This document shows positions 3,393-59,490 of a stretch of DNA of 64,000 nucleotides, in pieces. Each line of letters starts with the position of its first letter. The first letter of the stretch is position 1. The notes under the pieces are model-generated. The model did no database searches. It was given only the letters and a program-made list of their open reading frames with translations, and was not told where the DNA came from. Both the position numbers and the translations under genes were made by a program. This stretch comes from Lutjanus erythropterus (lineage: Eukaryota; Chordata; Actinopteri; Lutjaniformes; Lutjanidae): the NCBI GenBank assembly GCA_020091685.1, contig CM034591.1, positions 13,670,043 to 13,734,042 of the forward strand, given 5' to 3'.

Positions 3393-4498
3393 CACTCTGA
3401 GAAGTAAGGGTTCCAGCATGGTTCTCACTGAATGGTTGGGGTTATACCCACAACTATTTGCTTCTAAAGAACCATTTTTGAAGGAAGGGTTCGTCAAGCA
3501 TTCCTAAGGGTTCCACTGAGAACTATTTTCATGTAAAGAACCCTTTTTGGAAGAAAGAGTTCTTCGAGGATTGGGGGCCGGGGGGCAGAGCCGGAGTTTC
3601 TGGAGGGATCACCCCGAGTCATGTCGGATTCTGCTCTGATCTGACATACTTTACTTCATGAAAACAGACAGAGGTACACAAAGGAGAGGCAAGACTGGAG
3701 GGAAACAATCGGAGTTCCTTGGGTGCGGAGCGGAGTTAGAGGCTGAACTGAACACAGACGCACGCCCTCAGTGTCGCCCTGGAGATCGGATGTCTCGTCC
3801 GCTCGTCCCTCCCTAACGTTCTCATCTCATTTTTATTAGTTGACAAAAAGCCTTAGTATGTTTCATCAGCGTTTTTGTCATCATACTAAATTACTTTTTC
3901 TTTCATTGTCTATGCCTGTGGGTTGTAGGTGAAACCATTATCTAAAAGGGCATCATTTTGAGGTGTTTTCTGGATGAAACGTTTGGAATACACAAAGGTT
4001 CTTGAGAAGAACCACCTTGTCGTGTTATAGATGAAATCTTTGGAATATGAAAGGGTCTTTGGTAGAACCCCACTGGGTGGTTTCTAGGCGAAACCCTTGG
4101 ATTATTAAAGGATTCTCGGTAGAAGCCCCTGGGCACATTCTAGATGAAACCCAGGGAATAAAAAAGGGTTCTCACTCGAACCCCTTTGGTGAATTCTCGA
4201 TGAACCCCTTTTAATATAATAGGGTGGGTTCTAGATGAAACCCTTTGAAGATGGAAAGGTTCTGGATAGAATCCCCAGAGAGGGTTCTGCCTGGAACCAC
4301 TGCACCATAGAGGGGTTCTGGGTGTAGTTCTGGGTGGAACCTTTCACAGATGGTTTTAGGTACAGCCACCTATGTTTGGTTCTAGATAGAACCACCTGAA
4401 AAGGGATCCAGGTCGAACTACAGTGTTCGACCAAATAGGGTTGTCCTGTCGGGGCAGGCTAAAAACCCTACATGGTTCTGGTTAGCACCTTCATTTCT

Positions 4499-4505
<7 letters not shown>
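3393..4505 (+). mobile_element. TIR element with hairpin-unit tandem array, copy 1
   Basis: Starts with CACTCTGAGAAGTAAGGGTT and ends with a diverged inverted copy (the reverse complement begins CACACTTAGAAATGAAGG). A TA dinucleotide precedes it; the right flank has become a (TG)n microsatellite. The body from about 3925 is a degenerate tandem array of ~60-bp units with 'GGGTTCT..AGAACCC' and 'AACCCTT..AAGGGTT' arms. No transposase is visible, so it would have been mobilised in trans. This copy alone has about 350 bp of unrelated GC-rich DNA between its left end and the array. Confidence 0.8.
3573..3925. other. non-array DNA inside element copy 1
   Basis: Between 'TTCTTCGAGGATTG' and the first array unit lies sequence with no GGGTTCT/AGAACCC pattern, GC-rich with several CpGs, then an AT-rich tail. 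The other three copies go from the equivalent GATTG point into array-like DNA within about 50-150 bp. It is probably a later insertion, or cargo in this copy. I saw no clear target duplication and no coding potential. Confidence 0.5.
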
Positions 4506-4534: not shown

Positions 4535-6019
4535 CTATCTTAAGCCTCTGTTCTCCAACCTCAGAACTTGTGCTGTGCTCCGTCACCAGGGGAACAGATA
4601 GCTTTTAGCAGGCTACCCCGAGGTGGAAAACACTGTTCAGCCTCTCTCTCCTCCTCCCAGTTAGTCCCTCTTTCCTGCTCCCTCCACGTTTCATCTCTCT
4701 CCTTCGAAGCATTTTGTTTTCCTTTGGTATCCCTGTGACACTTCTTTTTCTTTTTTTTTTTTTTCCGAGGCAGGTTTGAATTGAAATAAATTTATTTCTT
4801 CTCTCTTCTCATGCTGCTGCCGCTATGGACATAAACCTTCTCTATCCAGAGCAGTCAGTGCTGTCATTGAAACATATTACCTCTGTTTCCTGCTCTCCTC
4901 ACACAGGTGGTGTCGTATTTTCAAGGCTGTGTAGATGAATAACAGGGATCATTTCACGTTGACATTTTTTTTTCTCTTTTTTTTATGAAAACTTATCAGC
5001 TTTGTTTACCATTTCCATTGTTCCCTCCCTGCGTGCAGATCTGAGCCGGATGGCAAACATCGGAGACAGACTCGGTGGGTGATGAAACACAAGGACACAC
5101 ACGGTGGGGAGGTGGGGAGTTGGGACGGTGTGGGGTCTGGCGAGCTGTAGTCTGACAGAACAGGTGAAAGAGTTTTTTTTTTTTTTATGAAAAAGGATGG
5201 AGGCGCTGGAGAAAGGTAGCTGGCAGGAAATTCAGCACGGGGACTTAAAGAAAGGGGGGGGGTGCTATCAGCTCCCTGGACCTGCACATTTTGACAAAGA
5301 GCAGCTACTTTCAAAGTTTTATAGCTTCCACCTACCTGCCCAGCTTGCTCACCTTCCTTACATACTGTAGGCCCATCAGAGGAAGCTGATGGAGGTCGTC
5401 TCTAACGCCGTCCCCCTCTGCTTCCTTTGTTCTCGGGAAATGAGCACTGAAGATCTGATGCCTCCTCCTCTGTTAGCGAACGAATGTACCGAGCAACAGC
5501 AATTTCCTTGAGCAGGCTTCGCCTCCTGCTGCTCCAGATTACAGCTCATTAGTAGTAGCTGCAGAGAGACAGCCCACACCAAGCCTCCCCTCTGATTCCC
5601 ACATTGTTTCCTGTGATTCTGGAGCGGCGTGCCACGGTGACAAAAATGGTGGAGGTGGTGGTTATGAAGGTTAGGCGGTTGGAGAGGAGACAAAGACGGC
5701 AGCGAGGCGCTTGTTCGCAGTTTGTCAGCTGCTGATGAACATGTGAAGAAGTAATTTTGGGGAGTGGAGTGGCGCCGAACTGAGAGAAAAGCTACAGAGT
5801 TGGTAAGAAATATGAGAGACAATGTATGTCATGATGGACGACCCCATGTTGTGTTGATGGACTGAGGTTTAAGTGACCTTCACGTAGCTGTCAAGGCAGA
5901 AATACAGTATAATTTGGGGAAAGAGCAACGGTGAGTATTGTGTCTCTACTTCTGCTTTCATACCAACGACTGTGGCTGGAGGCTTTGTTTTTGGGTTGTC
6001 CATCCATCAGTTCATCCAT
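4534..6019. other. no gene recognised; single-copy-like sequence with T-rich tracts
   Basis: Pyrimidine-rich to about 4760, then mixed. The 148-codon minus-strand frame at 5376-5822 is Ser, His and Pro rich with no domain and no start or splice context. I do not support it as a gene. Confidence 0.45.
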
Positions 6020-6124
6020 CCCATTTTTGTGAACACAATGCTGTGATGGTATTTCTTTAAATTTGGCACAAATGTCCACTTGAACTCACTTTGAATTGTT
6101 TAGATTGTGGAGGTCAAAGGTCAC

Positions 6125-6137
6125 GGTCACTGTGACC
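6125..6137. promoter_or_regulatory. perfect palindromic estrogen-response-element-like site
   Basis: GGTCACTGTGACC matches the GGTCAnnnTGACC consensus for estrogen-receptor dimers exactly. It sits in a repeat unit. The match is seen directly; binding is inference. Confidence 0.45.
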
Positions 6138-6246
6138 TCATGTCCATCCCATTCTCAGAAACAGCTGGAGGGTATTTCGTCACATTTGGCACAAATGTCC
6201 CATTGGACTCAAGATGAACTGATAAAAGTTTGGAGGGCAAGGTAAA

Positions 6247-6259
6247 GGTCACTGTGACC
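6247..6259. promoter_or_regulatory. perfect palindromic estrogen-response-element-like site
   Basis: Second GGTCACTGTGACC, in the next repeat unit 122 bp downstream. The AGGTCA half-site is preceded by AA, as in many nuclear-receptor half-sites. Confidence 0.45.
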
Positions 6260-6385
6260 TCACGTCTTTCCCATTTTTCAGAATGCAAAACATCAAGATT
6301 GTTTCAAATGAATCACTTCCAACTTGGCACAAACATTCACTTGGACTCAGTTTGAACTGTTTGCATTTTGGAGGTCAGAGGTCAT

Positions 6386-10011: not shown

Positions 10012-11299
10012 CACTCTCAGAAATAATGGTTCCAAAATGGCTGAGGTTCTACTAGAAACCTTTTTTGTAGAAGGGGTTCATTGGGGATTCATTGTAAGAC
10101 TTGGGGTTCCATTAAGAACCCTTTTCATCCATTTTGAATAATGAGTTCTTCAAAGATTGCTGAAAGTATGGGTGGTAAAATACGATTTTAGTTACAATAA
10201 TGAGCATAGTTCATGGATGACCACGATATAAAATCTATAGGATTCAATAATTTTTTTTTTGCCTCATTCGTAGAATATAGTACAGTTCTTTGTAGAACCC
10301 TCAGAAGACAAGAGTGTTATAGGTAACCTGTTTAAAATATATTTTTAGATTGCCCAAGGTGGGTTCCAGATGGAAAACCTGGAATATAAAAGGGTGGGAC
10401 ACCCCTGGTGGGTTCTAGAGGATACCCTAGAACATAAAGGGTTCTTGGTAGAATGCCCAAGGGGGGTTCTAGATGAAATTCTTCGAATATGAAAAGGTAG
10501 AAAACCCTGAGCTGAAGATGAAACCCTTGGAATATAAAATGGTTCTTTGTAGAACCTCTCGGGTGTGTTCTAGATGAAACCCATGGAAGATAAAATGTTC
10601 TTGGTAGAACCCCCTGAGCAGGTTCTTGATGAAACTTTGGAATGTAAAAGGGTAGAACGCCCTAGGAGAGTTCTGGATGAAACCCCTGGAATATTAAAGG
10701 GTTCTTGGTAGAACGCCCAACGGGGGTTCTAGATGAAAACCTTGGAACATAAAAGGATGGAATGCCCCTGGTTGGTTCTAGATGCTACCCTTGGAATATA
10801 AAAGGGTTCTCAGAGGAACCCCTTGGGGGGGGGGTTCTAAATGAAACCCTTGGAATATAAAAAGTTAGAACACCCTGGGTGGGTACTAGTTGAAACTCTC
10901 TGAATATGAAGGGGTTCTTGGTAGAACCCCCTGGATGGGTTCTAGATGAAACCTTTGGGATATAAAAAGATTCTCAGTAGGGTGGGTTCTAGATGAAAAC
11001 CCTTGGAATATAAGTGGGTACTGGGTAGAACACCCTGGGCGGGTTCTTGTTAGCAGTCTTAGAAGGTGAGAAGGTTGTGGATAGACCCCCCAGAGAGGGT
11101 TCTGGGTGGAACCATTGCACCATAGAAGGATTCTCTGTTAAACCTCTCTAGGTGGAATCTTTCACAGATGGTTCTAGGTATAAACCTTTAGGCTGGGTTC
11201 TAGGTAGAAGGCTCTGAAATGTTTCCAGGTGGAACTTTTATAGCAGGTTTTACTAGGAACCAAAAAGGGTTCTAGTTAGCACTTTTCTTCCTCAGAGTG
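10012..11299 (+). mobile_element. TIR element with hairpin-unit tandem array, copy 2
   Basis: The left end is CACTCTCAGAAATAATGGTT. The right end, reverse complemented, begins CACTCTGAGGAAGAAAAGTG. The flanking dinucleotides are CA on both sides. From about 10290 to 11100 there are roughly a dozen ~60-bp units with the core 'GGTTCTAGATGAAACCCTTG' then 'GAATATAAAAGGGTTCTTGG'. The last two or three units diverge toward the right end ('GGGTTCTGGGTGGAACC'). It is the longest and clearest array of the four. No ORF of note. Confidence 0.85.
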
Positions 11300-45934: not shown

Positions 45935-47169
45935 CACGCTGGGAAATAAATGCGCTAACTAGAACCAAGAGGGGTTCTTCGGCTTGTCCTCACAAGAGAA
46001 CCCTCTCTGGTAGAGCCTGGTAGAACCTTTGATAAACGTTCAATTTGGAAACAGTTCTACCTAGAACCCAACATAAAGGGTTATTTGTAGAACCATCTTT
46101 CACCCAGAACCCTCTCTGGGGGGTTTATCCAGAACCTTTCCAACTTTTAAGCGTGCGAGCAAGACTCAACCTGCAGGGTTCTAACTAGAAGCTTTTCATA
46201 TTCTAAAGGTTTTGTCTAGAACACTCTCTCAGGGTTCCACCAAGGACTTTCTTATAGTCTAAGGGTTTCATGTAGAACCCAGCTATGGGGTTCTACCAAG
46301 AACCTTTTTATATTCTAAGGGTTTTACCTAGAACCCACCGAGAAGATTCTTTTGAGAACCCTTTTATATTCCAAGGGTTTCAACTAAAACCACCCAGGGG
46401 GTTCTACTGAAAACACTTCGTAATCGGAGGGTTTTATCTAGAACTCACCCAGGAGTTTCTACCAAGAACCCTTTTATATTCCAAGGGTTTCATCTAGAAC
46501 CCACCCAGTGGCTTCTCCTGAGAACCCTCTTATATTCTTAGGGTTTTTTTCTAGCACCGACTCAGGATTTTCTTCCGAGAACCCTTTATATTCCAAGGGT
46601 TTCATCAAGAACCCACCCAGGGGTTTTTTACCAAGAATCCTTTTATATTCCAGGGGATTTATCTAGAACCCACCCAGGAGTTTCTTCCAAGAACCCTTTT
46701 ATATTCCCCAGAGCCCTCTTTGGGGGTTTCATCCAGAACCTCTCCACTGCAAACAAGAACCAACCTGCAGAGTTCCAACTAGAACCTTTTCATATTCTAC
46801 AGGTTTTATCTAGAACACACTCTCAGGGTTCCACCAAGAACCTTTTCATAGTCCAAAGGGTTTCATCAAGAACCCACCCACAGGGTTCTACCAAGAACCT
46901 TTTTATATTTTAAGGGTTTTACCTAGAACCCACCCATGAGTTTTTTTTTTCTGAGAACCCTTTTATATTCCAAGGGTTTCAACTAGAACCAACCATTTTA
47001 CATTATAGTATAAAGAACTCTTGACTAAAGGGTTCTGTATGGGAACCTTTTTCTTACAAAAGAACCCTTGACAAACCCCTCTTTCAAAAAAGGGTTCTTC
47101 AGAAGTGACTCTGGGTAAAATCTCAGCCTTTAAGGAAGAACCCTTTTAGAACCCTTATTTCTAAGAGTG
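45935..47169 (-). mobile_element. TIR element with hairpin-unit tandem array, copy 3 (inverted)
   Basis: In plus orientation it begins CACGCTGGGAAATAAATGCG and ends 'GAACCCTTATTTCTAAGAGTG', the reverse of copies 1, 2 and 4. TA lies on both sides (45933-45934 and 47170-47171), an intact-looking target duplication. Units read 'GAACCCTTTTATATTCCAAG', 'GGTTTCATCTAGAACCCACC'. About a dozen and a half units. Confidence 0.85.
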
Positions 47170-47580: not shown

Positions 47581-50500
47581 CTTGTTAGGGCTTGTGATGA
47601 AAAGAAGCACTGGCTGAACCCGAAGTTGCGATGTTGAAAGAGAAAGACCTAGATTGTTTTTTTTTAGAGCAGATGCTACAACGTGCAAACACATAACAAA
47701 TGCTATTTGTTCTATTTCACTCCTTCAGGCAATTCAGTCCACTGACATGAAGGTATTTTTTGGGGGGGGGGTATCAGTGTGCAAGTTTATGTGCTTCGAC
47801 AAAACACTAATCCTGTTATTTCGTCCCTGAAGGATGCACATTTCTTCAGTTCCTTGGAGACAACACTTCTATGATATTTTTATCAGAATTAGGGAGCCCC
47901 CTCCTCTCTGCTGACACACAAAACTTCTGTCTGCTGACCTAGTCTCCCTCTCCTCCTCGTTTGCCTCAGATGGAAGCAGCGATGCAAACATTGTAGGCGC
48001 CAAGCAGCGTTGGGGAACGTTACTTTTAAAGTTTGCATGAAGTTAAAATGGACCTTTAAGTGTTTGGTTTTTTTTAATCATATGTGTTGTGCTATGAGTC
48101 ACCAATACACCAGTATCTGGCTCAAGAATGACAAAAAAGGTAGCTATCAGTTAGTTTGTCTTTTTCAGGAAAACAATTAAAAACTGTTCGTGACTCATCC
48201 TGCACTTGAAGGCGTTACTAAATTTGCATCCAATTAAACGCTTTCTTGAATATATTCATGCTTCGAAGTGGAGTGGAGTGTTTCTGGGCGCAAAAGCAAA
48301 ACTTTATAACCTTATTTACTGATCTGGTTCAAACTGGATCATATTTTATGGAGAAAATATTTTCTGGTTTTCCCTCTGATGTCGTACGACTCCTCACCTT
48401 CAACTCGGCGTGATTTAATTATAGAGTTTCCTGATGGACGGACACTTAACTACTGCTACTGTTAGCGGTCGTTGTTGTTTTGATCCCAGTCTGGCCGTGT
48501 TCACTGGGAGCTCTGAGTCCAGAGGAGTCAGCTAATGTGATCGCACTCCCTCCTACATCCATGGACCACTTCAGCTCATGGTGGGAAGAACCAATAAACA
48601 CCAATCACTGTCCCTCCCTGGCTGCCTGGACTCTACTGGCTGTTTTAGCTGAACTTTAAAATAACTTGTTAAATTATGAGATTACTGCTAATTACTGTAT
48701 TACTGTTAATTATAAAATTACTGCTATTAAAAAGTAACTTGTTAGGTCACTGAGAAAAGGAACTGGTGAGACTGAACAGCCTCTCCACAGGTGCACTAGT
48801 CTGGATGGTGTTGGAGTGCTGGCTGCAAGAGAGATCTGATCGTGGGGAATTTGTTCAAAACATCCATCTCAACACCCCACTTGAGATACTCCACAATTTC
48901 AGAGTCTGCCAAGCCCATAGGCTGTCTGTCTGTCCTCCGTCTCAATTGCAAAAAAAAGACACCCACAGAAGCTCGTCCGATTACAAGTGAAAGCAGCAGT
49001 AGTTCTTGCTGTTGAGGAAACTAACAATTGTAACGGTAAGGGATTGCTTGCTTGAAAAAGTAACTAAATAACTGAGCACTTCAATTGTGAAACAAACACT
49101 TCACATTGCTTATTACAACAAAAAAGTAATCTGAGTACTATACAGGCTCATTTATGCTGTTAGATGTGGCTACAGGCGGAGACTTCTTTTGCATTCATTT
49201 TGTCTTTTGTCTGAAAGTTTACAGATACAAACTAGTGGAAAGAGTTCTCTGTCCTCATGTTGCAAAGCATCTAATTACCACAGAGACCACTGCCATCTAC
49301 AGCATTACCTCCACTTTTGTCTCTTTCTCAAAGGGACACTATTACAACTACCTCCAGCGTCGCCACGTTTGTTGCGGTCACAAACTTTGAACTCTTCTGC
49401 TTCTTCTTCGGTGAAACTACTGACCGTGTGCGGCGCCGTCTAGTGCAGCCGTTCCCAAAGTTAAGAATGCCACAGCTCTATCTGAAATCTAAAAATCGCC
49501 TGTGTCTTTACTTACTTATATACTTATTATTTTGTAAACAATACAATTCTATGTGAACGTGGGCATAAAGCAATGCAGTGCACATTGATAATCTATCCAC
49601 ATGAATGTAAATATTTATAAACTTGCATATCTTTCCTTTTTAATGCCCATCAATAACAAGGTATTCCCTCAACTATGACTGAGATATAAGATGTGTTGTG
49701 GTGGCAGTGTGAGGGACACCAAATATGGCGTAACACCTGTTAAAACAGGTCAGATAAAAGAAGAATAACATGTAATTTGAATACCGTGTCTTTTTTTTTT
49801 TTTTTTAGTTATTATTACCTTCTGCATATTTGATTCTTCTGAAGACTTTATGGTAATCTCAAACTTAATTATAAATTGAAAATTAAAAACTTTATTTTTA
49901 ACGACCTCTCGCAGTCTACCTGCAGCACCTTCACAGCCCACACTATGGAAATCTCTGCTCAACATTCGTGCCAATATAAAAGGACGCATGGAAGTACGTG
50001 GGAGCTGGTGACTGTATCGTTCAACTATCTATTTTTGTAAGCGATGGAGGTATAAATTAGCCTTAACACCTTACTTTATACTGTGTTACACTGCTGACCA
50101 GCACCTGGCTTGGTGACATTTAATGAATTTTTGTACCTGAGGGTGAAATCGTGCTCTCGTCAACTGTTCCTAAGCATCAGTGTGAAGCCTGGCTGAGCTC
50201 GACGGTGTGTAGATTCAATGTGTGACTCCCGTATTGTAAATTCAGAGCGTCTCTCTCCCAGCAGAAGCACCGTGATCCAAGAGCAGCTGCAGCAGAGACT
50301 TTAAAAGTTTGCAGCAGTGGCTGAAGGGTTTCATACTAACAGCATCGGCTTTCTGGCAACTGGAGAAGATGACAACTTCTTCTCAATCAGCTGCTTCTCT
50401 TGCTTTTTTTTTTTATTGATGGAGGGCTGGATGAATGAATGCATGTATGGATGGATGGATGTGTAGATGGGGGGATAAACAGGAGAAGCAGGAGGCTGCT

Positions 50501-58231: not shown

Positions 58232-59490
58232 CAGTCTGACAAATAAGGGTTCCGAAAGGGTTCTTCTTGAAGAGCTGAGGTTCTACCCAGAGCCATCTGC
58301 TTCTGAAGAACCTGTATCTGAAGAAAGGGTTCGTCAAGGAACCTTTATACAACCAAGGGTTCCATTAAGAACCTTTTTCATCCAATGAACCCTTTTTGGA
58401 AGAAAGAGTTCTTCCAGGATTGTTGAAATGCTTAAAGAACTCTTTCGTCAGTAGTTCTTTGCACCATAATATAAAAGTGTTCCTGGTAGAACCCTCTGAA
58501 TGGGTTCCAGATAAATCCCTTGGAATATAAAATGTTCTGGATAGAACCCCCTGAATTGATTCTGGATAAAACTAAGAAAAATATTATAGGTAGAACTCAG
58601 AGTAGGTTCTAGAAAACACTTGAAATATAAAAAGGCTCTGGGTAGAACCTCCCTCCTGTTCTAGATAAAAGCCTTGGAATATAAAAGGTTCTAGGTAGAA
58701 AGATAAAAGGGTTTTTAGTAGAACCCCCTGGCTGGGTTATATATAAAACCCTTGAAAATTAAAAAGCTTATCGTTAGAGTCTCTAAGTGGGTTCTAGACA
58801 AAACCCTTGAAATATAAAAAGGTTCTCTGTAGAACATCCTGGGTGGATTCTAAATAAAATCCTTGGAATGTAAAAAGGTTATTAGTAGAAAAAAAAAACC
58901 TTGAAATATGAAAAGGGTCTTTGTAGAACCTCCTGAACGGGTTCCAGAAAACCATTGGAATAGAATAAGATTATAGGTAGGACCGCCACTGGGTTCTAAA
59001 AGGGTTTTTCATAGAACCCCCTGGCTGGGTTATATATAAAACCCTTGAAAAGTAAAAAGTCTATTGGTAGAACCACTAAGTGAGTTCTAGATAAAATCCT
59101 CAGAATATAAAAAGGTTCTTGGTAGAACCCCCTGGGTGGGTTCTAGAAAAAAAAAACCTTGAAATATGAAATGGGCCTTGGTAGAACCTGCTGTGTGGGT
59201 TCTTGTTAGCACCCTTAGAAAGTGGAAAGGTTCTGCATAGAACCCTCAGAGGGATTCTGGGTGGAACCATTACACTAATGGCTCACTGTAGAGCCTTTCA
59301 TAAGGGGTTCTGGGTGGAACCTTTCACAAATAGTTCTAGGTATAAAGCTTTATGTTACCTTCTAAATAGAACTCTCTAAAAGAATTTCAACCTTCTGAAA
59401 GGTTTTACCAGGAACCAAAAAGGGTTCTCCTCTGAGGACAAGCCAAGGAACCCTTGATGGTTCTAGTTAGCACCTTTATTTCTCAGAGCG
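58232..59490 (+). mobile_element. TIR element with hairpin-unit tandem array, copy 4
   Basis: Left end CAGTCTGACAAATAAGGGTT; right end 'TTAGCACCTTTATTTCTCAGAGCG'-type, given as TTAGCACCTTTATTTC + TCAGAGCG. Flanks are TG and CA, each one transition from TA. About a dozen units 'AACCCTTGAAATATAAAAAG' + 'GTTCTTGGTAGAACCCCCTG'. Two internal blocks ('GGCTGGGTTATATATAAAAC' at about 58730 and 59025) are near-identical, indicating a higher-order duplication of several units. Confidence 0.85.

Follow-up and report, generated by a model that had tools for sequence, protein, structure and literature searches.

The window, that is, the whole 64,000-nucleotide stretch of Lutjanus erythropterus DNA analysed here, contains four complete copies of a short transposable element, each of them with an internal array of tandem units (Table 1). 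A 20-base end pattern, allowing up to three mismatches, was found four times in the window, once per element, and not once in 100 shuffles, and this places the copies where the sequence-only reading had put them. Inspection of both ends and flanks also bore out the inverted ends that the copies had been said to share, which start with CACTCT or, in copy 4, with CAGTCT. The longest stop-to-stop frame of the four window copies has 70 to 123 amino acids, in agreement with the claim that the body of the element is not a transposase. Four copies in 64 kb are more than the 0.36 expected (P of at least four, 5e-4); genome-wide, 7.6 windows with such a four-copy local excess are expected. A tRNA scan of the 64-kb window returned nothing.

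Table 1. Copies of the element in the window, their arrays (unit numbers by the stricter scoring) and the duplicated block of copy 3.
Feature	Position	Strand	Remarks
Copy 1, complete element, 1113 bp	3393..4505	+	flanks: left TA, right TG (a GT run begins)
Copy 1 array core, 4.7 units	3962..4225	+	strict scoring; Tandem Repeats Finder 4028-4225
Copy 2, complete element, 1288 bp	10012..11299	+	flanks CA/CA
Copy 2 array, 15.1 units, 64-79% alike	10358..11155	+	partly alternating units of ~48 and ~56 bp
Copy 3, complete element, 1235 bp	45935..47169	-	TA on both sides
Copy 3 array, 16.3 units	46098..46994	-	
Copy 3, duplicated block, first copy	46707..46995	-	83.3% identity to the second copy, 299 columns, offset 599
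Copy 3, duplicated block, second copy	46103..46396	-	extends to the junction with the 3' region
Copy 4, complete element, 1259 bp	58232..59490	+	flanks TG/CA
Copy 4 array, 15.0 units	58468..59271	+	best 150-bp ungapped self match 85%, offset 293

Tandem Repeats Finder reported arrays of about 56 bp in all four window copies, as well as longer periods of 105 bp in copy 2 and of 112, 166 and 222 bp in copy 3. The number of near-complete 56-bp units is 8, 16, 16 and 16 in copies 1 to 4, respectively. The 10 to 18 units per copy that had been read from the sequence are therefore correct for copies 2 to 4 but not for copy 1, in which strict scoring leaves 4.7. The alternation of 48- and 56-bp units, seen in copy 2, was rejected as a general feature of the elements. 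Each unit had been described as two nested palindromes, and both are present; a more fitting view of the unit, however, is that of GGGTTCT and AGAACCC arms alternating along a chain, each arm being able to pair with either neighbour, so that several mutually exclusive hairpins would be possible.

The host genome (938-Mb assembly, 444 contigs) was searched for the ends and for the unit. The 5' end with at most one mismatch gave 5352 matches (2726+2626), against 98 (49+49) for the reversed pattern, and its exact 21-base form gave 427+420 matches, against 0 for the control. With two mismatches, 2436 matches were found for the 3' end (1243+1193) and 4581 for a 28-position piece of the unit (2388+2193), the control being 0 in both cases. 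The family is short, present in high copy number and, as judged from the frames of the four window copies, without transposase, as a MITE would be. One scan of viral contigs gave 0 matches to the family end.

Ends were paired in 78 fetched loci (L001 to L078) and in the window. From 65 rows, L067(+) was dropped and L063 was re-oriented, resulting in 64 elements, and a 93-bp false pair in copy 3 was excluded. These elements range in length from 153 to 1484 bp (median 894.5 bp) and have terminal inverted repeats with the consensus ends CACTCTTAGAAATAA(G/A)GGT... in inverted orientation; the two ends align without gaps over about 19 bp and beyond that in pieces only. Left and right flank agree over exactly 2 bp in 30 of the 64 elements; in 2 elements the agreement is limited to 1 bp, and in no element does it extend to 3 bp. 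TA is found on both sides in 22/64, and both sides are TA, CA or TG in 52/64, so 12 flank pairs do not fit. Two rows of this set are imprecise, since L067(-) is bounded at 261 bp and really measures 945 bp, and for L013 two positions of the 5' end are possible, giving a length of 1336 or 1484 bp. These uncorrected rows underlie the counts of flanks, unit identity, best matches, block duplications, stem pairing and unit number given here; once L067 is corrected and the outer of the two L013 ends is used, there are 23 TA/TA pairs and 31 exact 2-bp matches among the 64.

A 2-bp flank match with TA on both sides is the signature of insertion at TA, as known from the Tc1/mariner superfamily, with decay afterwards. 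Inverted repeats and a 2-bp (TA) target duplication across 64 elements agree with the earlier designation of the copies as TIR elements. An hAT origin was discarded, as an 8-bp flank match occurs in 0/64, and so was a foldback element of the Tetris/Galileo type, as the elements have a single central array in one orientation and not tandem repeats inside long TIRs. Past mobility of the family is suggested by the ends together with the 2-bp duplications; in an empty-site check, no sequence in the sampled DNA matched the joined flanks of any of the 64 elements across their junction. A search of the host genome for the DDE_3 domain gave 3439 first-look candidates, of which 150 were scored, and it brought to light no autonomous partner with the family ends. 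Many of these 150 have stop-free open frames of 200 to 389 amino acids, indicating that some Tc1-like families in this genome may be young.

To relate ends and arrays, we scored 70 loci that had been chosen by the end pattern alone among the matches listed, on contigs 1 and 2 only; L038 is copy 2, and the overlap of L013 and L014 leaves 69 independent loci. An array score of at least 100 was reached in 62 of the 70 loci, the shuffle maximum being 28, and in all 62 the array has the same orientation relative to the ends. The 3' end scored above the shuffled maximum in 64/70. The eight loci below an array score of 100 are L023, L039, L043, L050, L052, L057, L058 and L070; hardly any array is present in four of them (L023, L043, L057 and L070), two of which look like deletion products. 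The complete elements of this sample (n=56) have at least one near-complete unit in 51 cases and at least five in 38.

Seventeen array-similar loci were taken from 40 scored candidates of a similarity search, the query itself being excluded. Both ends scored above the null maximum in nine of these loci, at least one end in 16 and none in L088, counts in which recovery of the 3' end was partly favoured, since the query was the whole of copy 2 together with its flanks and the 3' region is part of most matches, and in which an absent end may lie beyond the fetched sequence at the ten loci with short flanks. Two outcomes had been set against the idea of an element with an array inside it, namely TIRs without arrays and arrays lacking TIRs. 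Neither prevails: ends without a clear array occur in 8/70 loci only, and an array with no recognised end in 1 of the 17. The 100 exact unit matches listed, which reach up to contig 14, are spread, by eye count, over about 96 separate places, a distribution in which no long free satellite shows. A free satellite that came to lie by chance between end-like sequences was rejected on the joint occurrence of arrays and ends in these samples and on the 2-bp duplications.

The array is central, between outer regions common to the elements, and comprises 0 to 17 near-complete units in the sampled elements (median 8). In the 61 elements longer than 500 bp, the consensus of the outer parts measures 244 and 277 bp, with a mean column identity of 0.82 and 0.81. 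These outer regions of about 240 and 270 bp also consist of the GGTTCT/AGAACC motif, in a more diverged form. The 3' outer part has ten GGTTCT-like arms at a spacing of 22 to 36 bp, and an AGAACC-like arm comes next after nine of the ten.

We also compared the ends with the unit. In a first round of six comparisons, 4/1000 shuffles were as good as the 45-bp 3' end and 37/1000 as good as the 5' end. The 32-bp 3' end, reversed, resembles the unit to a degree equalled by 0/2000 shuffles of the end and 3/2000 shuffles of the unit; for its outer 18 bp, with the hairpin arm left out, the corresponding numbers are 62/2000 and 58/2000. This moderate evidence suggests that the unit likely derived from a duplicated terminal or subterminal motif. 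The array had been called the cargo of the element. It does lie inside a TIR element, but cargo is a doubtful word for it, because the outer parts too are built from the motif of the array, and because unit and 3' end resemble each other; self-derived is the better term.

The median K2P divergence of the ends from their consensus is 0.164 for the 5' end and 0.176 for the 3' end, indicating that the family is old. The units, with a column identity of 0.74 (gaps counted), are more diverged than the ends. Neighbouring units within an element are 0.617 identical, compared with 0.594 between elements, values so close, for units so short and diverged, that the history of the arrays is poorly resolved by them. 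Of 421 units, 60 find their best match within their own element, against 11.1 expected. Judging from these unit comparisons, the arrays look mostly present at insertion, with some local duplication since. Positional homology of units between elements was rejected, as identity is nearly flat over the index difference (0.593 to 0.602); either the arrays were reshuffled or the shortness of the units hides any such relation.

Internal matches of 100 bp or more were detected in 34/61 elements, with at least 80% identity in 3/61. Block duplications were found in L032 (86.3% over 190 bp, offset 221) and in L007 (84.9% over 186 bp, offset 224), as well as in copy 3. Half of the divergence between the blocks is smaller than the distance of the ends from the consensus in L032 (0.068 and 0.101), L007 (0.075 and 0.224) and copy 3 (0.084 and 0.192), so these duplications look younger than the insertions, assuming equal rates and a consensus that stands for the source. 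In copy 3 the duplicated block meets the junction of the array with the 3' region, as multi-unit unequal exchange or slippage would leave it. The proposal of an array that expands inside a transposon and spreads with it needs modification: the arrays appear mostly inherited rather than formed afresh in every copy, and later block duplication is clear in a few elements.

Taken together, we consider it about 85% probable that the elements belong to an old Tc1/mariner-type MITE family, built of one motif, with mostly inherited arrays and later gains of blocks. The members would be high-copy, non-autonomous elements of about 0.15 to 1.5 kb, inserted at TA and presumably moved by a transposase from another element. 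They would be composed of a single short motif, GGTTCT...AGAACC, in alternating orientation, the middle being an array of ~56-bp double-hairpin units. The unit comparisons suggest that source copies already bore arrays when they spread. Some arrays would have gained multi-unit blocks later, probably by unequal exchange or replication slippage, and the resident copies would since decay, with hairpins that are not maintained.

How the array arose and whether it had a role can be read in several ways. It may be a chain of extra transposase-binding sites, formed by repeated duplication of the TIR, that raised mobility while the family was active. The likeness of the 3' end to the unit over 32 bp and the composition of the outer parts from the same motif agree with this proposal, which has also been put forward for Galileo and Tetris in the cited text (PMC4079207). 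We regard it as possible but tentative, given that the outer 18 bp are only weakly like the unit (62/2000 shuffles as good) and that 4/70 end-selected loci have hardly any array, two of them perhaps as deletion products. A slightly more tentative version is that the MITE enlarged itself by iterating its own putative transposase-recognition hairpin and gained mobility with a Galileo-like multi-site body. If such self-amplification is true, how well source lineages fared in the past should follow from their number of units, and binding of the unit by the transposase would be expected.

A foreign satellite captured by the MITE, the model proposed for miDNA4 in the portion of the source considered (PMC12628747), would account for a central array bounded by regions common to the elements. 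Capture is nevertheless unlikely, since the motif of the array also makes up the outer regions and no free satellite is visible among the 100 exact unit matches listed. Selection on the hairpins in resident copies, as structured RNA, a source of small RNA or a cruciform, is very improbable. Folded as DNA, the first 889 nt of copy 2 do beat 20/20 shuffles (z -3.94), the RNA fold of the copy 2 array has a z of -1.93 (1/100 shuffles as good), and selection on folded Angel elements in zebrafish lncRNAs is reported in the cited part of PMC3636048. The palindromic origin alone, however, accounts for the folds, and a scan of the window gave no Rfam family at its gathering score. In addition, changes on both sides of four possible stems, counted in 505 units, number 25, 26, 50 and 28, against permutation means of 29.6, 28.8, 59.6 and 36.5; there is no covariation and the pairing of the arms is not maintained, which led us to reject a function through conserved hairpins.

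Short MITEs of zebrafish and other cyprinids, with ends like CACTCTTAAAAATAAAGGTTC and the GGTTCT motif, may offer a lead, since their ends are presumably similar to those of the present family; they are not known to carry a long array. Six forms of the family ends are not mentioned in the literature texts searched. The sequence-only reading had called an array inside a transposon unusual, a judgement to be qualified by the precedents described in the cited excerpts, among them Xenopus miDNA4, Drosophila Tetris and an hAT MITE of cod; with examples from frogs, flies and cod, the present family is one more of a known kind. What is unusual in it is that array and outer parts share one motif.

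One of the known systems closest to the family is miDNA4 of Xenopus tropicalis (Scalvenzi and Pollet 2014), which the sources consulted describe as a MITE of the Tc1/mariner superfamily whose interior holds a satellite-like array that varies in copy number (PMC12628747, PMC9659126). The likeness to the present family, also a Tc1/mariner MITE with an internal array, is one of description. These accounts regard the miDNA4 array as a tandem repeat that was captured and is able to expand to a free satellite, whereas in the present family the outer parts share the array motif and no long free satellite occurs among the matches listed. For the Xstir/Xmix MITE, also of Xenopus (Hikosaka and Kawahara 2004), the same texts report MITE-derived tandem repeats inside and beside the MITE (PMC12628747, PMC9659126); compared by description, it has MITE, tandem array and composite forms, and the present family is mainly composite.

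In Drosophila, the tandem repeats of the non-autonomous Tetris have a 37-bp stretch in common with its terminal domain, and those of Galileo are said to hold extra transposase-binding sites, according to the section of PMC4079207 used here. The repeats there measure ~220 bp and are placed in long TIRs, the duplications are 8 to 10 bp and the Mutator superfamily is suggested (PMC4079207), while the present family has 56-bp units, short TIRs and a 2-bp duplication. The gadMor-hAT-1784 element of Atlantic cod is a MITE of tandem and inverted internal repeats without transposase, as outlined in PMC12368964; it differs in being an hAT element with two ~600-bp TIRs of 167-169-bp units, located at inversion breakpoints (PMC12368964). 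Angel of zebrafish (Izsvak et al. 1999) is a high-copy teleost MITE able to fold back, with one long stem-loop formed from inverted repeats, and the passages cited do not mention an array of small hairpins (PMC12628747, PMC3636048). Coral CMITEs, as far as the excerpt describes them, form tandem arrays of whole elements and not of internal units as in the present family.

The family provides a well-sampled case, in a large fish genome, of a cut-and-paste element bearing a tandem array that is dispersed with it, and array-carrying transposons are a proposed route for the seeding of satellite DNA around the genome. Its thousands of copies would allow array gain and loss to be measured against insertion age and would make testable the idea that internal arrays serve as extra transposase-binding sites.

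Some loci and repeats were recorded in addition. Positions 1501-1668 of L013 contain two family 5' ends in direct orientation, 148 bp apart, the first of them followed by ~41 bp of the element and then by unrelated DNA; this reads as a complete copy next to one that was truncated or had its interior replaced. L043 is a 267-bp element, nearly free of array, whose left flank has a piece resembling the family 3' end, which suggests adjacent insertion of two family copies. In the window, a 123-bp tandem repeat at 6015-6283 (two copies, 77% matches), which contains TTTGGCACAAATGTCC, is unrelated to the hairpin array, and an AT-rich tandem repeat of 18/36 bp lies at 48657-48744.
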